Virus record (IMG/VR): IMGVR_UViG_3300025098_002390
Span: 1-26,120 of that record
Source: a virus
DNA: 26,120 bases
Direction: 5' to 3' (one strand)
Position 1 is the stretch's first letter, and the number at the start of each line of letters is the position of its first letter. Shown here piece after piece: positions 12,913 through 24,026 of this stretch. The position numbers and the translations under genes were made by a program. The notes beneath the pieces are model-generated. The model ran no database searches, was not told the origin of the DNA, and saw only the letters and a program-made list of their open reading frames with translations.

Positions 12913-12939
12913 CAAAATCTTTAAATTAGTGTATAAATA
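12909..12939 (+). promoter_or_regulatory. Overlapping sigma70-type and T4 late promoter of gene 45
   Basis: TTGACA (12909-12914) and TATAAA (12932-12937) are 17 bases apart, and the -10 is itself embedded in a perfect late box TATAAATA (12932-12939). The same site can therefore be read by the host holoenzyme and by gp55 polymerase. It lies 29 bases upstream of the sliding-clamp start; gp45 is needed both for replication and as late-transcription activator. Confidence 0.8.
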
Positions 12940-16317: not shown

Positions 16318-16884
16318 ATGAATGATGATGAACAACTAGAATTTGATTTGGGTGATACTGTAACTACTTTAGACTGGAGACCAGAACTTCTTATTTGGAA
16401 GCTTTGGGACGAAGCGCACCTCCCAGAATACGCTACTGAATGGTCTGCTTGCTTTGATTTGAAAGCAAGTCTGAGGCCTCTTGACCTTATTAAAGTTTAT
16501 GGTCGTTTGAATGGTTCAGTTACACGCCCTGTTGATGAAGACAAGAAGTTCTCACTATATCACGGTGAACGTGTTCTGATACCAACTGGCTTAGTGTTTG
16601 ATTTGGATAGAGATACTTCACTTCGTATTCATCCTCGCTCTGGACTTGCGTTGAAGAAGGGCGTAATCATTGCAAATTGTGAAGGCGTTGTGGATGCTGA
16701 CTATGTTCAACAAACATATGTGATGCTTCAAAACACTTCAGATCAAGTATTTGAAGTTAGAGACGGCGATAGAATCGCACAAGCCGAAGTCGTCCCACTT
16801 CAACAATATATTTTCGAGGTTAGCGACAGAGAACCTGAAAATAAAACGTCACGTACTGGCGGACTTGGTAGTACTGGCGTATAA
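16318..16884 (+). CDS. dut: dUTPase
   Basis: 188 aa. Trimeric dUTPase motifs: ACFDLKA (motif 1, about 44-50), HPRSGLALKKGV (motif 2, with the catalytic segment about 102-113), NCEGVVDADY (motif 3, about 117-126, catalytic Asp), GDRIAQAEVVP (motif 4) and RTGGLGSTG near the end (motif 5). Hydrolyses dUTP to dUMP, keeping uracil out of DNA. An insert of about 25 residues after motif 1 makes it longer than usual. The start follows TAGGAT. Confidence 0.92.
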   Translation: MNDDEQLEFDLGDTVTTLDWRPELLIWKLWDEAHLPEYATEWSACFDLKASLRPLDLIKVYGRLNGSVTRPVDEDKKFSLYHGERVLIPTGLVFDLDRDTSLRIHPRSGLALKKGVIIANCEGVVDADYVQQTYVMLQNTSDQVFEVRDGDRIAQAEVVPLQQYIFEVSDREPENKTSRTGGLGSTGV

Positions 16885-16887
16885 ATA
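16880..16887 (+). promoter_or_regulatory. T4-type late promoter of hsp20
   Basis: Perfect TATAAATA at the end of dut, with no TTGACA-like sequence at -35. It is 69 bases upstream of the Hsp20 start and places that gene in the late class. Confidence 0.75.
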
Positions 16888-17914: not shown

Positions 17915-17943
17915 TTGACAACCGTTTCTTTATTTGATACAAT
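17915..17943 (+). promoter_or_regulatory. Sigma70-type promoter of gene 43
   Basis: TTGACA (17915-17920), 17-base spacer, TACAAT (17938-17943), 29 bases upstream of the polymerase start. Confidence 0.77.
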
Positions 17944-17972: not shown

Positions 17973-20486
17973 ATGAGTTTTTACACATCTGCACACCGCT
18001 ATGGCAACAAGATTCTCTTTCGAGGTTACGATGCCAAGGGCAACCGCTTACACAAGCGAGTGCCATTCAAACCCACCTTCTTTCTACCATCTAAGACGCA
18101 CCAGACAGACTGGAAAGCATTAGACGGCACACCTGTTGAGCCATTTGAACTCAATGATATGAGTGAGGCCCAAGAGTTTAATAAACGATATGAAGATATC
18201 GGTAACTTCAAAGTATATGGTAACAACAACTTTGTAGCACAGTTTCTTGCTAAAGCATATCCAGAAGATATCGACTACAAGCTATCGTCTATTCGTGTGG
18301 GTAACTTTGATATCGAAGTTGCATCTGATAGTGGCTTTCCACATCCAGATCAAGCAGATCATCCAATCATTTCTATTGCTTATAGAGACAACACTGTGGG
18401 CGTGTATCATGTCTGGGGTATGGGTGACTACGACTCTAGTAAGACAGAGCTAGACACAGACTGCTTAATTCAATATCGTAAGTGTGAGCATGAGGCAGAG
18501 TTGCTTCAAAAGTTTGTTGTGTTCTGGGAGAACAATTGCCCAGACATTATCACTGGTTGGAACATTCGTCTATTCGATATTCCATATCTTATCAATCGTA
18601 TTGTGAAAGTGTGCGGCGACAAGACAGCCAAAGCGTTGTCACCTTGGGGCATATATAAGTATCGTCAGATTGGTATCAAGGGTAAGAGCATGGATGCATA
18701 TGAAATCTATGGTGTTGCTCAGATGGATTACTATGACCTAGTACAGAAGTTTGGCTTCTCTCTAGGTCCACAAGAAAGTTACTCGTTAGATCATATTGCC
18801 CATGCTGTTCTTGGTGAGCGTAAGCTATCATATGAAGAGCATGGTTCTTTGCATACGTTATATAAGAATGATTATCAAAAGTTTATTGACTATAACATCC
18901 GAGATGTAGAACTGGTTGATCGTATCGATAAGCAAATGGGTCTTATGGAGTTGGCTCTTGTTATTGCGTACAAAGGTGGTGTGAACTATCCAGATGTATT
19001 TGGCACGACTGCGATTTGGGATTCTATCATCTATCGATATCTTAATATTCGTAACATTGCAGTACCACCGAACATTCGTAAAGAGAAAGACCCGTATCCA
19101 GGTGGCTATGTGAAAGAGCCTCGTACTGGTATGACGAAGTGGTTGTGTTCGTTTGACTTGAACTCTCTTTATCCGAACTTGATTGTGCAATACAATATGT
19201 CACCAGAAACGCTATTGCGAAACCCTAGTGACAAACTACCTGGCGGCGTAGACTTCTACATGACGCCCAATGATCCTTTACATCCTGCAAACCGTGAACG
19301 TAACGTAAGTGTTGCAGCGAATGGTTCGTGCTATCGTAAAGACAAGCAAGGTGTTATGCCAACTATCATCATTGGTCTTTATGATGAACGTAGGGTGACA
19401 AAAGATAAGATGCTAGAGATAGAGCAAGAGAACGAGAAGACTCCTTCTCCTGACTTGAAGCGTGAAATCAATCGTCTTGGTAACACTCAGATGGCTATTA
19501 AGATTTTGCTCAACTCTCTTTATGGCGCATTGGGCAATCAATACTTTCGCTACTTTGAGATGGATATCGCAGAGGGTATCACGCTATCTGGTCAGCTATC
19601 TATCAAGTGGGCAGAGAAGACTATCAACAATGCTATGAACAAGATACTTAAGACTGATGATGATTACGTCATAGCAATCGACACCGACTCTATCTACGTT
19701 GATATGGGTCCGCTTGTGAACAAAGTCAATCCACCTGATCCAGTCAAGTTTCTTGATAAAGCTTGTAGTGAGAAGTTTGAACCTATTCTAGCAGATGGTT
19801 ATGCAGACCTCTTTCAACGTATGAATGCCTTTGAGAACCGCATGGTCATGGCACGTGAGGTGATTGCAGATCGTGGTGTATGGGTTGCTAAGAAGCGTTA
19901 CATTCTAAACGTTCACAATAACGAAGGTGTGCAATACGCAGAGCCTAAGGTGAAGATGATGGGTCTAGAGGCAGTCAAGTCTTCTACGCCTATGGTAGTA
20001 CGTAACAAGTTTAAAGAAGCATACTCAATTGTTCTACGTGGCACCGAAGAAGAGTTGCAACAGTTCGTACAAAACTTCTACAATGATTTTACTTCACTAC
20101 CAGCAGAAGATGTAAGTTTTCCTCGTGGTGTGAGTGAAATTGACAAGTGGAATGATCTAAATACTATATACAAGAAAGGCACACCCATTCATGTTCGTGG
20201 CTCATTGCTATTCAATAAGAAGATGAAAGAGGTAGGCCTAGACCGCTCAATGGAAGCTATTAAGAATGGCACAAAGGTCAAGTTTTGTTATCTCAAAAAG
20301 CCCAACCCTCTCATGGAGAATGTGATTGCGTTTCCGCAGTTTCTCCCAAAAGAATTTAATATGCAGCAATACATTGATTATGATTTGCAGTTTGATAAAG
20401 CGTTCAAAGAACCTCTCAAGCTAGTAACAGATGCAATGGGTTGGCAAATTGAAAAGATAAACACATTAGAAGGATTTTTCTCATGA
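17973..20486 (+). CDS. 43: gp43 DNA polymerase (family B)
   Basis: 837 aa (T4 gp43 is 898). Proofreading exonuclease site FDIEV (112-116) with further acidic motifs (NIRLFDIPYL about 197-206; the YNIRDVELV segment about 307-315). Polymerase motif A DLNSLYP (395-401), motif B KILLNSLYGALGN (510-522), motif C DTDSIY (570-575). The C-terminus ends TLEGFFS, a plausible clamp-binding tail like the hydrophobic end of T4/RB69 gp43. No intron, intein or split is seen. Confidence 0.97.
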   Translation: MSFYTSAHRYGNKILFRGYDAKGNRLHKRVPFKPTFFLPSKTHQTDWKALDGTPVEPFELNDMSEAQEFNKRYEDIGNFKVYGNNNFVAQFLAKAYPEDIDYKLSSIRVGNFDIEVASDSGFPHPDQADHPIISIAYRDNTVGVYHVWGMGDYDSSKTELDTDCLIQYRKCEHEAELLQKFVVFWENNCPDIITGWNIRLFDIPYLINRIVKVCGDKTAKALSPWGIYKYRQIGIKGKSMDAYEIYGVAQMDYYDLVQKFGFSLGPQESYSLDHIAHAVLGERKLSYEEHGSLHTLYKNDYQKFIDYNIRDVELVDRIDKQMGLMELALVIAYKGGVNYPDVFGTTAIWDSIIYRYLNIRNIAVPPNIRKEKDPYPGGYVKEPRTGMTKWLCSFDLNSLYPNLIVQYNMSPETLLRNPSDKLPGGVDFYMTPNDPLHPANRERNVSVAANGSCYRKDKQGVMPTIIIGLYDERRVTKDKMLEIEQENEKTPSPDLKREINRLGNTQMAIKILLNSLYGALGNQYFRYFEMDIAEGITLSGQLSIKWAEKTINNAMNKILKTDDDYVIAIDTDSIYVDMGPLVNKVNPPDPVKFLDKACSEKFEPILADGYADLFQRMNAFENRMVMAREVIADRGVWVAKKRYILNVHNNEGVQYAEPKVKMMGLEAVKSSTPMVVRNKFKEAYSIVLRGTEEELQQFVQNFYNDFTSLPAEDVSFPRGVSEIDKWNDLNTIYKKGTPIHVRGSLLFNKKMKEVGLDRSMEAIKNGTKVKFCYLKKPNPLMENVIAFPQFLPKEFNMQQYIDYDLQFDKAFKEPLKLVTDAMGWQIEKINTLEGFFS

Positions 20487-20785: not shown

Positions 20786-21865
20786 ATGTCGCTAATTGAA
20801 AAACTAATGAAAAACTCCACCAGTAAGATGACGGCACCTATCATGGACTCAAAAGTCTATGGTAAGAAAGACATGGCAACTACACCTGTACCTATGGTTA
20901 ACGTTGCTCTATCTGGTCGTGTTGATGGTGGCTTGACGCCTGGCTTGCTTATGCTTGCTGGTCCGTCTAAACACTTTAAATCTGCATTTGCATTGATGAT
21001 GGCTGCGGCTTATCAAAAGAAGTATGATGATGCAGTAATCCTATTCTACGATAGTGAGTTTGGTACACCTCAATCATACTTCGAATCTTTTGGTATTGAT
21101 ATGGCACGTGTTGTGCATACGCCAATCGTTAACGTAGAAGAACTCAAGTTTGATATCATGAAGCAATTAGATGGTATCGATAAGAATGATAGAGTTGTTA
21201 TTCTAATTGACTCGATTGGTAACTTGGCTTCGAAGAAAGAAGTTGATGATGCGATGGATGGTAAGTCCGTTGCTGATATGTCACGTGCAAAGCAAATGAA
21301 GTCATTGTTTAGAATGATTACACCACACTTGAATCTAAAAGATATCCCACTAGTAGCAGTCAATCATACTTACAAAGAGATTGGTTTGTTCCCGAAAGAT
21401 ATCGTATCTGGTGGTACTGGTGCATACTACTCTGCCGATGCAATATGGATTATTGGTCGTCAACAAGAGAAGGTTGGCACAGAGATTGAAGGTTACCACT
21501 TTGTGATTAACATTGAGAAGTCTCGCCATGTACGTGAGAAGTCTAAGATACCAATTACTGTTACATTCAATGGTGGTATCTCTAAGTGGTCTGGTTTACT
21601 AGATGTTGCAGAAAAGCTTGGTTACATCACCAAACCTAAAGTTGGTTGGTATGAAGCTGTAGACCCAGAAACTGGAGTAGTGCTAAGTGATAAGCTAATG
21701 CGAGCCAAAGAAGTCAATAGTAACGGAGACTTCTGGAAAATGATGTTTACAGAAACAAACCTTGCGGAAGCAATCAAAACCCGCTATACTGTAGGTGGTA
21801 AGGCTCTTATGGCTGATGACGTACAAGTAGACGAAACTATTGAGGAAGTGGTAGAAAATGATTGA
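20786..21865 (+). CDS. uvsX: UvsX RecA-like recombinase
   Basis: 359 aa (T4 UvsX is 391). The Walker A variant GPSKHFKS (59-66) is the UvsX form; the Walker B region VVILIDSIGNL follows, then VNHTYKEIG and VSGGTGAYYSADAIW. It forms filaments on single-stranded DNA and drives strand exchange, loaded by UvsY. The acidic C-terminal tail (VDETIEEVVEND) fits RecA-type proteins. Overlaps gp41 by 8 bases. Confidence 0.96.
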   Translation: MSLIEKLMKNSTSKMTAPIMDSKVYGKKDMATTPVPMVNVALSGRVDGGLTPGLLMLAGPSKHFKSAFALMMAAAYQKKYDDAVILFYDSEFGTPQSYFESFGIDMARVVHTPIVNVEELKFDIMKQLDGIDKNDRVVILIDSIGNLASKKEVDDAMDGKSVADMSRAKQMKSLFRMITPHLNLKDIPLVAVNHTYKEIGLFPKDIVSGGTGAYYSADAIWIIGRQQEKVGTEIEGYHFVINIEKSRHVREKSKIPITVTFNGGISKWSGLLDVAEKLGYITKPKVGWYEAVDPETGVVLSDKLMRAKEVNSNGDFWKMMFTETNLAEAIKTRYTVGGKALMADDVQVDETIEEVVEND

Positions 21866-23279
21866 AAGTGTTATCCTTGCTAATCTAACATACAATGAAG
21901 AATATGCAAGAAAGGTAATACCATTTTTAAAAGAAGATTATTTTGATGCTCAGTCATACAAGATAGTCTACAAAGAAATTGTATCATACGTTGATACATA
22001 CAATGGGCTTCCTACAAAGGAAGCTCTACGTATCTCTATTGATGAGAAAGAAAATCTAAACGAGGAACAATACAAAGATGTTAACCTCGTTATAGACAAT
22101 CTTAAACAAGAAGATGCACCAGATAGTGACTGGCTAGTTGATAAGACAGAAAAGTTTTGTCAAGATAAAGCTATCTACAATGCAGTACGTGAAAGTATTC
22201 TAGTACTAGATGGTAATCACAAAGAGCTAGACAAGGGTTCAATACCAGAACTCTTGTCAACGGCTTTGGGTGTATCGTTTGATAGTAGTATTGGTCACGA
22301 CTTTCTTGATAACTTTGATGAACGCTATACGTTCTATCATACAAAAGAAGATAAGATACCTTTTGACCTTGAGTTATTGAATAAGATTACAAAAGGTGGT
22401 CTGTCTCGTAAATCTCTAAGTGTTGCTCTTGCAGGCACTGGTGTAGGTAAAACTTTGTTCATGACCCATTGTGCATCAGCGAATATGATGCAGGGTTTGA
22501 ATGTTTTATATATAACAATGGAGATGGCAGAGGAACGCATTGCAGAACGCATTGACGCTAACCTTCTTGATTTGACTATTGATGAACTTAAAGAGATACC
22601 AAAAGATGTCTATGTTAAGCGTATTAATCGTGTAAAGAACAAGACAACAGGTAAACTTATCGTCAAAGAATATCCAACTGCAAGTGCTGGATCTGCTCAT
22701 TTTCGTCACTTACTAAATGAACTACGTCTAAAGAGAAACTTTATACCAGACGTTGTGTATATCGACTATTTGAATATCTGTACTTCTTCACGTATGAAGT
22801 ATGGTGCGAATGTGAATTCATACACTTTGATTAAAGCAATAGCAGAAGAACTTCGTGGTCTGGCGGTAGAGTTTAATATTCCTATTATGTCAGCTACGCA
22901 AACAACAAGAACTGGCTATAGTAGTTCAGACTTAGGTCTGGAAGATACGTCAGAGTCTTTTGGTCTACCTGCAACAGCAGACTTTATGATTGGTTTAATT
23001 TCTACAGAAGAGTTAGAAAGTCTTGGGCAACTTATGGTTAAACAACTTAAAAATCGATGGGGTGATACTAACTATCTCAAAAGATTTGTTGTTGGTATTG
23101 ACCGATCTAAGATGCGTTTATTCGATGCAGAAGAGAATGCACAAGACTTAATGGATGACACCCCAACTATGGATCGAGGCGCTGTAGGTGAAAGAATGGG
23201 TGCAGAGCGTGAAGACTTTGGCGAAGTTGTTAGTTTCAAGAAGGGTAAAAGGCCTCTGGCATTCGAAGGGTTTAGTTAA
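21858..23279 (+). CDS. 41: gp41 replicative helicase (DnaB-type)
   Basis: 473 aa (T4 gp41 is 475). An N-terminal helical domain, then the RecA-like core with Walker A GTGVGKT (193-199), the DnaB segment LYITMEMAEERIAERIDANL, Walker B VVYIDYLNI, SATQTTR (H3-like) and GIDRSKMR near the end. It unwinds the T4-type fork 5'-3' on the lagging strand and works with primase gp61, which is not in this window. Confidence 0.96.
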   Translation: MIESVILANLTYNEEYARKVIPFLKEDYFDAQSYKIVYKEIVSYVDTYNGLPTKEALRISIDEKENLNEEQYKDVNLVIDNLKQEDAPDSDWLVDKTEKFCQDKAIYNAVRESILVLDGNHKELDKGSIPELLSTALGVSFDSSIGHDFLDNFDERYTFYHTKEDKIPFDLELLNKITKGGLSRKSLSVALAGTGVGKTLFMTHCASANMMQGLNVLYITMEMAEERIAERIDANLLDLTIDELKEIPKDVYVKRINRVKNKTTGKLIVKEYPTASAGSAHFRHLLNELRLKRNFIPDVVYIDYLNICTSSRMKYGANVNSYTLIKAIAEELRGLAVEFNIPIMSATQTTRTGYSSSDLGLEDTSESFGLPATADFMIGLISTEELESLGQLMVKQLKNRWGDTNYLKRFVVGIDRSKMRLFDAEENAQDLMDDTPTMDRGAVGERMGAEREDFGEVVSFKKGKRPLAFEGFS

Positions 23280-23467
23280 TGTCTTACAGAGTAGAAGAAG
23301 ACTCTAAAGAAAAAAAGTTCAAAGTAATAGAGAAAAACACAGAAATTGTTTTGTATAAAAGCGAATGTAGCAAAGACGCAAGATCGATGTGTAGGTCTTT
23401 AAATCTAGGTAGTGGCTTTAATGGATTATCGCCAAGATTTTTTTCATTAGAATGTCGACCAAAGTAA
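23279..23467 (+). CDS. 62-aa hypothetical protein after gp41
   Basis: ATG 23279 overlaps the gp41 stop. Beta-rich start (YRVEEDSKEKKFKVIEKNTE), a helical RSMCRSLN part and a conserved-looking end (GSGFNGLSPRFF) that I associate with marine T4-like small proteins. No known function. It ends directly before a bidirectional terminator. Confidence 0.8.
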   Translation: MSYRVEEDSKEKKFKVIEKNTEIVLYKSECSKDARSMCRSLNLGSGFNGLSPRFFSLECRPK

Positions 23468-23470
23468 ACA

Positions 23471-23500
23471 AAAAAGGCGCCCCAATGGAAGCGCCTTTTT
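23471..23500. terminator. Bidirectional Rho-independent terminator
   Basis: AAAAAGGCGC (23471-23480) pairs perfectly with GCGCCTTTTT (23491-23500) around a 10-base loop. The A-run and T-run on the two sides make it work in both directions: it closes the uvsX–gp41 unit on the + strand and the small minus-strand gene. Confidence 0.87.
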
Positions 23501-23582
23501 ACTTTACTTGATACGTGGCAGGCCCGAACCCCACGGACATACTTGATGTGACACCTGCTATTCCTTTTGTGATTTTTCTCAC
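23499..23582 (-). CDS. Candidate 27-aa late micro-protein on the minus strand
   Basis: The minus-strand frame runs from GTG 23582-23580 to TAA 23501-23499. AAGAGG (23593-23588) lies 5 bases before the GTG, a TATAAATA late box (23634-23627) lies 45 bases upstream, and the stop abuts the bidirectional terminator. The product is basic at the start (RKITKG), with GVTSSMSVGFGP in the middle and ends TYQVK. No family is recognised. An overlapping upstream frame, ATG 23611 to TGA 23579, gives 10 residues and could be a leader peptide. The unit could instead be a small RNA. Support comes from the complete set of signals, not from homology. Confidence 0.5.
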   Translation of the reverse strand: MRKITKGIAGVTSSMSVGFGPATYQVK

Positions 23583-23626
23583 ACTTGCCTCTTACGTTGT
23601 TTCACGTACATACACGCACCCGATGT

Positions 23627-23634
23627 TATTTATA
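23627..23634 (-). promoter_or_regulatory. Minus-strand T4-type late promoter
   Basis: On the minus strand the box reads TATAAATA exactly. It lies in the only gene-free + strand stretch of about 250 bases (23468-23714) and faces the small frame at 23582-23499 and its terminator. T4 late boxes need no -35. Confidence 0.62.
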
Positions 23635-23656: not shown

Positions 23657-23685
23657 TTGACAAGGCCAAAAAAATACTATATAGT
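23657..23685 (+). promoter_or_regulatory. Sigma70-type promoter for the 23.7 kb gene pair
   Basis: TTGACA (23657-23662), 17-base spacer, TATAGT (23680-23685), 29 bases upstream of ATG 23715. It diverges from the minus-strand late box at 23627-23634. Confidence 0.77.
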
Positions 23686-23714: not shown

Positions 23715-24026
23715 ATGGACGAGGAAAATCTAGATAAGTATTGTATGGAAATAGTTGATGATAACATTAATATGACTGTACCATGGTATTTGATAGCATC
23801 ATTTGCTTACTACAATCAGGACAATCCTGTATTAAGCGATGGCGTTTTTGATAAACTAGGTCGTAAAATGTTAGCAGCATGGGATAAGATAGAACACCAT
23901 CATAAGGAGTTAATCACAGAGGACGATTTAAAAGCAGGAACATTTTTGGGTGAATACCCTAGTAGAGTTGAAAGTGCAGTTAATCATGTAAGGGAATCAT
24001 GTCTTGGAAAACAAAAGCGTAGGTGA
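23715..24026 (+). CDS. 103-aa hypothetical protein with ligase-Ia-like motif
   Basis: The stretch SFAYYNQDNPVLSDGVFDKL (about 29-48) followed by KMLAAWDKIE resembles the Ia domain of NAD-dependent DNA ligases (YYxxDxPxxSDxxYDxL) and small phage proteins carrying only this motif. No nucleotidyltransferase core is present, so ligase activity is not expected. The start follows AAGGGTCTCTC, with AGGG as a weak RBS. Confidence 0.75.
   Translation: MDEENLDKYCMEIVDDNINMTVPWYLIASFAYYNQDNPVLSDGVFDKLGRKMLAAWDKIEHHHKELITEDDLKAGTFLGEYPSRVESAVNHVRESCLGKQKRR

Follow-up and report, generated by a model that had tools for sequence, protein, structure and literature searches.

The window analysed here is the whole of a 26,120-base virus record from a T4-like phage, recognisable as such by its genes for DNA polymerase (positions 17973-20486), UvsX (20786-21865) and the gp41 replicative helicase (21858-23279, plus strand; PHROG 19, E = 4.9e-124). 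Among the named phages listed, the best matches to its gp41 are approximately 57-62% identical. Nearly all long open frames of the window lie on the plus strand, so the first-pass annotation was fair in calling the minus strand otherwise empty. Past gp41, the minus strand carries in order a T4-type late promoter, TATAAATA (23634-23627), the motif GGGTGCGTGT, the motif TAAGAGGCAAG (23593-23583), a GTG frame of 27 codons (MRKITKGIAGVTSSMSVGFGPATYQVK, 23582-23499) and an intrinsic terminator (23500-23471) consisting of a GC-rich hairpin with a 13-bp stem and a T run. The annotation had described a miniature late gene with a perfect promoter and a stop codon touching the terminator, which could encode either a tiny protein or an RNA; these landmarks are all present. 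On the plus strand the terminator likewise has a T run, which faces the gp41 unit, and it can therefore serve both directions.

The length of the 27-codon frame is not remarkable. Exact copies of TATAAATA number three in the window, against 2.3 expected at its composition (the other two, at 12932-12939 and 16880-16887, are on the plus strand). This number is not above chance, and the case therefore rests on relatives of the locus. The window also contains plus-strand sigma-70-like promoters at 17915, 20727, 23657, 24198 and 24755, with 11 of 12 consensus matches and a 17-nt spacing. The promoter at 23657 is directed away from the late promoter, so the minus-strand unit comes after the gp41 unit has ended and before the next early unit starts.

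Relatives retain the promoter and the terminator

We gathered relatives from loci with a related gp41 and by scanning viral contigs for the pattern GGGTGCGTGT N{8,36} AGAGGCAAGTG, which occurred in at least 119 stretches with a nearly identical layout. A covariance model, R1, found more distant members 3' of gp41 on the same strand, and a second pattern scan returned more than 70 distinct members of this kind, which we term type B. R1 matched all 48 type-B members tested, with E values from 5e-13 to 0.015. As the scans used motif patterns, these figures, and the total of well over a hundred distinct relatives that they yielded, are lower bounds. Type A, to which the window belongs, lies on the opposite strand and faces gp41; it was found past gp41 in 119 of the 125 listed loci, 120-1,500 nt beyond the stop codon. 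Type B shares the strand of gp41 and is found downstream of it. The observation that the unit runs against gp41 transcription thus holds for the window and its clade, but it is a clade trait and not a general one. Each of 13 long contigs held a single copy.

An exact TATAAATA stands 5-9 nt before the first GGG of the RNA in 64 of the 66 distinct type-A members listed, whereas the background density of this motif in the same loci is 0.14 per kb. This recurrence indicates that the combination of promoter and RNA is real. Among the type-B members listed, 70 of 72 distinct sequences have TATAAATA, CATAAATA or CTAAATA. The published late promoter of phage S-PM2, NATAAATA, is close to the TATAAATA of T4 and KVP40 (PMC2984593). 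As in T4-type late units, the promoter in both types is found at a fixed distance from the predicted start. Downstream of the RNA, a terminator-like hairpin is present in 62 of 64 members listed for type A and 64 of 68 for type B, compared with 60 of 300 random pieces when scored with the same loose detector. Promoter and terminator are thus conserved together with the RNA, which is what an independent transcript would look like at the level of sequence. Given a promoter 5-9 nt upstream and a terminator of its own, the RNA should start within a few nucleotides of the predicted start and measure about 150 nt overall. We predict transcription to begin at or near G23621, and the RNA is probably transcribed late in infection.

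Covariation points to a six-helix RNA

The predicted structured core occupies 110 nt of the minus strand (23621-23512) and matches the covariance model with 111.6 bits. Helix P1, formed by UGCGUG (23618-23613) and CACGUA (23517-23512), closes a multibranch junction holding P2, P3 and P4, and P4 in turn holds P5 and P6. Hairpin P2 (UACGU-GAAACA-ACGUA, 23608-23593) lies directly 5' of a purine box, AGAGGCAAG(U) (23592-23583), which is predicted to be single-stranded. Next come hairpin P3 (UGUGA-GAAAAA-UCACA, 23583-23568), the loop of which is free to vary in length among relatives, and a GGAANA element between P3 and P4 (23566-23559) that is kept in both types. P4 (GCAGGU/GCCUGC, 23558-23518) encloses P5 (ACAU-CAAGU-AUGU) and P6 (CCG-UGGGGUU-CGG), the latter with an invariant 7-nt loop. 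The minimum-energy fold computed from the window sequence alone consists of exactly these six helices. The energy of the core is not more stable than that of shuffled sequences (z = -0.34); with the terminator included, z is -2.5.

We examined covariation in three alignments. In the first (A1), 34 distinct type-A members were aligned with MAFFT with no structure supplied. RNAalifold predicted 22 pairs from it, 15 of which had changes on both sides. When the six-helix structure was laid on A1, 94.5% of cells were paired, and 154 cells showed double changes, whereas shuffling gave 46.5 and sliding the partners no more than 25. The second (A2) comprised 79 sequences of both types and was fitted to the covariance model, which favours the structure; here all 29 pairs had double changes, with 524 such cells against 126 when shuffled and at most 78 when slid. 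The third, type B aligned alone with MAFFT, was like A1 not fitted to the model, and it recovered P1, P4 and P6. In type B, P1 is highly variable yet paired; because P1 hardly varies in type A, this constitutes independent support for the helix.

The individual helices show the same behaviour. P4, P5 and P6 are paired in 99.4%, 100% and 99.6% of cells, respectively, and every pair in them has compensatory changes. The pairs of P2 covary, as in UACGU/ACGUA versus UGUGU/ACACA. P3 is the weakest helix, with 84% of cells paired, and has double changes in five of its five pairs. P1 is nearly invariant in type A, and all six of its pairs become compensatory once type B is included. Type B has no P5, and its P1 (for example, AUAUGU/CAUAUU or GACUGG/CCAGUC) and P2 differ from those of type A, whereas GGC, GGAA-A and UGGGGUU are the same. 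Indeed, conservation across both types is confined to unpaired bases, namely AG-GGC in the purine box, GGAA-A and the UGGGGUU loop of P6. Cells with G-U number 96 and those with A-C 12, a difference to be expected if the functional folded molecule is the transcribed minus strand. Taken together, the sequences make it very probable that the locus is a structured non-coding RNA gene, with a predicted core of about 110 nt plus a terminator and a primary transcript of about 150 nt.

The reading frame is not conserved

The competing possibility raised by the annotation is that the transcript is an mRNA for a 27-residue late protein, with a GTG start behind an AAGAGG Shine-Dalgarno sequence. An open frame with such a box does exist, and among 55 distinct close type-A relatives 33 retain the window's frame at both motifs. 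However, a conserved peptide should have been kept through synonymous changes, and the remaining 22 relatives shift or lose the frame through changes in loop length while retaining the RNA (19 have another open frame at the motifs and three have none). The distance from GGCAAG to GGAA takes 14 different values in type A, from 19 to 37 nt and in all three phases, and GGAATAG...GCAGGTGGGGTTCC is translated as GITGVASRMQVGFLP, HRRNSRGSILYAGGVPLDH or SRSKARKSRCRPYGPLGL depending on the member. Even in a same-length subset of 19 members in which the frame is mostly open, there is no codon-position bias, with 18, 20 and 15 variable sites at positions 1, 2 and 3. Of the type-B members listed, 27 of 72 have no frame that crosses the motif and reaches 20 codons. 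The AAGAGG sequence is present, but it lies inside the invariant unpaired element of the RNA, whose AG-GGC core persists in type B. Base pairing explains the variation instead: between the window and one close relative (L002), only two changes fall within the RNA, and both preserve the pairing of P4, although one would replace Pro with Ser. A tblastn search of named phages for a homologue of the peptide gave no match. As judged from these alignments, relatives share nucleotides and not a reading frame, and this is not protein-like evolution. We consider the peptide scarcely credible and judge the 27-codon frame to be an accidental one within the RNA; of the two products that had been proposed for this late unit, it is the RNA that is borne out.

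The RNA occurs in two clades of T4-like phages

To place the RNA among T4-like phages, we compared its presence with a gp41 tree of 143 loci, in which deep branching is weakly supported. The RNA is found in all 51 loci of clade A, all of them type-A carriers (support 0.992), and the type-B RNA in 55 of the 57 loci of clade B. On the side of the tree that holds cyanophages and Melnitz, it was detected in none of 30 loci. Searching the whole records of 14 named phages (S-SM2, Melnitz-3, Syn30, S-IOM18, DLP6, HTVC008M, S-PM2, P-SSM2, T4, Syn9, P-SSM4, phiM12, KVP40 and pf16) with a covariance model, R2, gave no match below E = 0.2, and nothing convincing emerged when the gp41 regions of S-SM2, Melnitz, Syn30 and S-IOM18 were searched without filters. 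One locus on the cyanophage side (L033, 6270-6510) has TATAAATA, GGGTGAGTGTT, GGAAAAG, a GGGGUU loop and a terminator downstream of gp41. It is a candidate for a very divergent relative, with covariance-model E values of just 0.06-0.3 in larger searches.

When single members were compared by DNA similarity with 50,697 phage records, the matches were all short (22-46 nt) and attributable to chance. Seven members linked by N into one query gave no match in the phage records, a result that the query length makes uninformative. Among 84,980 bacterial and archaeal genomes, a motif biased towards type B had one match, which appears to be due to chance; it lies in a GC-rich Gemmatimonas MAG and has no promoter, P2 or terminator. 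On present sequences, the RNA is a phage gene of two clades and is near-universal in both of these large aquatic clades of uncultivated T4-like phages. In cyanophages it may have been lost or changed past recognition, or it may have been transferred between clades; the data do not decide between these histories.

Comparison with known RNAs

We compared the RNA with 4,227 families of Rfam 15 and found no gathering-level match in 17 sources; searches by E value gave weak, sub-threshold chance matches. Ribozymes known to Rfam were rejected on structure or context. In the literature covered, mostly non-subscription papers, we did not find the RNA described; the comparison took in structures with an Rfam entry, which Ocean-VI (PMC2864571) does not have. 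Like the present RNA, CfrI of S-PM2 is a short non-coding RNA of a T4-like marine phage, approximately 225 nt long and expressed during infection (PMC2984593, PMC12197685). CfrI, however, runs antisense to two genes, psbA and one for a homing endonuclease, whereas the present RNA does not overlap gp41, has a conserved fold and flips its orientation between clades. The R2 search found no match to the present RNA in S-PM2.

Strongly covarying structures are also known from T4-like marine phages and metagenomes, namely manA (RF01745), wcaG (RF01761), PhotoRC-II (RF01717) and glnA (RF01739) (PMC2864571, PMC9964418). Those are cis-regulatory and were placed in 5' UTRs by their authors, whereas the present RNA comes with a promoter and terminator of its own; in the Rfam search, none of the four matches it. 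Late units of T4 have the same promoter motif in the same place relative to the start, but they make protein. The product of the present unit would be non-protein, and T4 does not have the RNA by the R2 search. GOLLD, an RNA associated with phages, is similar in being a stand-alone, orphan structured RNA whose function is not known; it spans several hundred nucleotides, compared with about 110 nt plus a terminator for the present RNA, which has no Rfam match. A phage small RNA is therefore a known kind of molecule, and it is the family, the predicted fold and the apparent near-universality in two clades that we did not find described.

Possible modes of action

Considering that the RNA is self-contained in transcription, that its structure persists where its orientation to gp41 is flipped, and that it has a separate promoter and terminator and no overlap with gp41, we propose that it acts in trans. 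It would be transcribed late by RNA polymerase carrying the phage late sigma factor and the sliding clamp, and would accumulate as a stable folded molecule whose helices display the three invariant unpaired elements as contact sites. Because no neighbouring gene is specific to the RNA, its function has to be inferred from these features. Three invariant unpaired elements carried on freely changing helices suggest a protein or ribonucleoprotein partner rather than a short mRNA seed. If the RNA does act in trans, we lean, with about even confidence, towards contacts between these elements and a single conserved protein or ribonucleoprotein, from either phage or host; on the same premise, a base-pairing regulator is a possible but clearly less favoured reading, and a ribozyme or other activity is less favoured again.

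A base-pairing small RNA would use the UGGGGUU loop or the purine box as its seed, with phage or host mRNAs or the 16S rRNA anti-Shine-Dalgarno sequence as targets. The loop and the purine boxes are invariant and predicted to be unpaired, and AAGAGG and AAGGAA resemble Shine-Dalgarno sequences. Yet the phage loci collected show no enrichment of AACCCCA, which is complementary to the loop (14 sites versus 27.5 expected, and 22 versus 24.2), and three separate invariant elements in a six-helix fold exceed what a seed needs, so that across all readings we regard this one as rather unlikely. In the same count of complement sites, CTATTCC was modestly high (51 versus 29.6 and 50 versus 36.1). Alternatively, the RNA could belong in cis to the gp41 unit, as an antisense RNA, a 3' UTR stabiliser or an elaborate terminator for gp41 or the next small gene. 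It does lie downstream of gp41, and in clade A it and the gp41 unit point towards each other, with a terminator hairpin that can work both ways. But the RNA is retained although its orientation to gp41 is reversed between the clades, in clade A it is separated from gp41 by 120-1,500 nt and sometimes by other genes, and it has its own promoter and terminator on a conserved strand that does not overlap gp41. An action in cis is thus improbable. Specifically, an antisense of gp41 in the manner of CfrI was rejected on the basis of this distance and of the shared strand in clade B, and a 3' UTR element was rejected on structure or context. We give even less weight to conservation at the level of DNA, for example in an origin of replication or a hairpin for recombination next to the helicase gene. 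The single copy and the adjoining replication genes uvsX and gp41 are consistent with such an element, but promoter and terminator flank the structure precisely, the excess of G-U over A-C cells marks one strand as a folded RNA, and all invariant bases fall within predicted RNA loops.

Returning to the trans-acting RNA, a more ambitious version of this proposal is that it forms the core of a new late phage ribonucleoprotein or ribozyme needed for lytic growth by both clades, with UGGGGUU and the purine elements as its active or binding site. We put this forward tentatively, as a possibility well short of a favoured one. Short UGGGGU RNAs form four-stranded G-quadruplexes, and in a bolder form of the proposal the RNA may, by analogy, assemble into multimers through its UGGGGUU loop. 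Near-invariant loops over such distance imply a strong, shared target, and that target, if found, would reveal a step of late T4-like infection that T4 omits or does differently. Independently transcribed structured phage RNAs are rarely recognised, and gene finders miss them or call false peptides, as at this locus. With two covariance models in hand, the RNA can be searched for at once in existing seawater metatranscriptomes.

Genes around the RNA

When the neighbouring genes were clustered, no protein family proved to be restricted to loci carrying the RNA, the syntenic replication genes apart. The recurrence of gp41, uvsX and a small protein of the 62-residue type is ordinary synteny of the replication region. 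Among the clusters that recur most often next to the RNA, this clustering brought no recognisable reverse transcriptase to light. The 62-residue protein of the window (23279-23467, plus strand), which contains the motif LNLGSGFNGLSPRFF, sits between gp41 and the RNA. Its only PHROG match is marginal (phrog_29065, E = 0.005), and Pfam gave none; members of its cluster occupy the same interval in 33 loci of type A and 64 of type B. This protein could be a candidate partner of the RNA.

Other genes occur near the RNA in some loci. In one type-A locus (L175) and about ten others, the interval between the RNA and gp41 contains a gene for a NifU/IscU-type iron-sulfur scaffold, at 100-550 nt from the RNA; the first 70 residues of its product match PF01592 with E = 6e-30. 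Seven type-A loci may encode an IscA-like protein; the fragment tested had no Pfam match. On the far side of the RNA, the window encodes a 103-residue protein (23715-24026, plus strand; phrog_19233) with weak likeness to the N-terminal NAD+-binding domain of NAD-dependent DNA ligase (PF22745, just under the cut-off; phrog_6466), and this protein is perhaps a stand-alone remnant of the ligase Ia domain.
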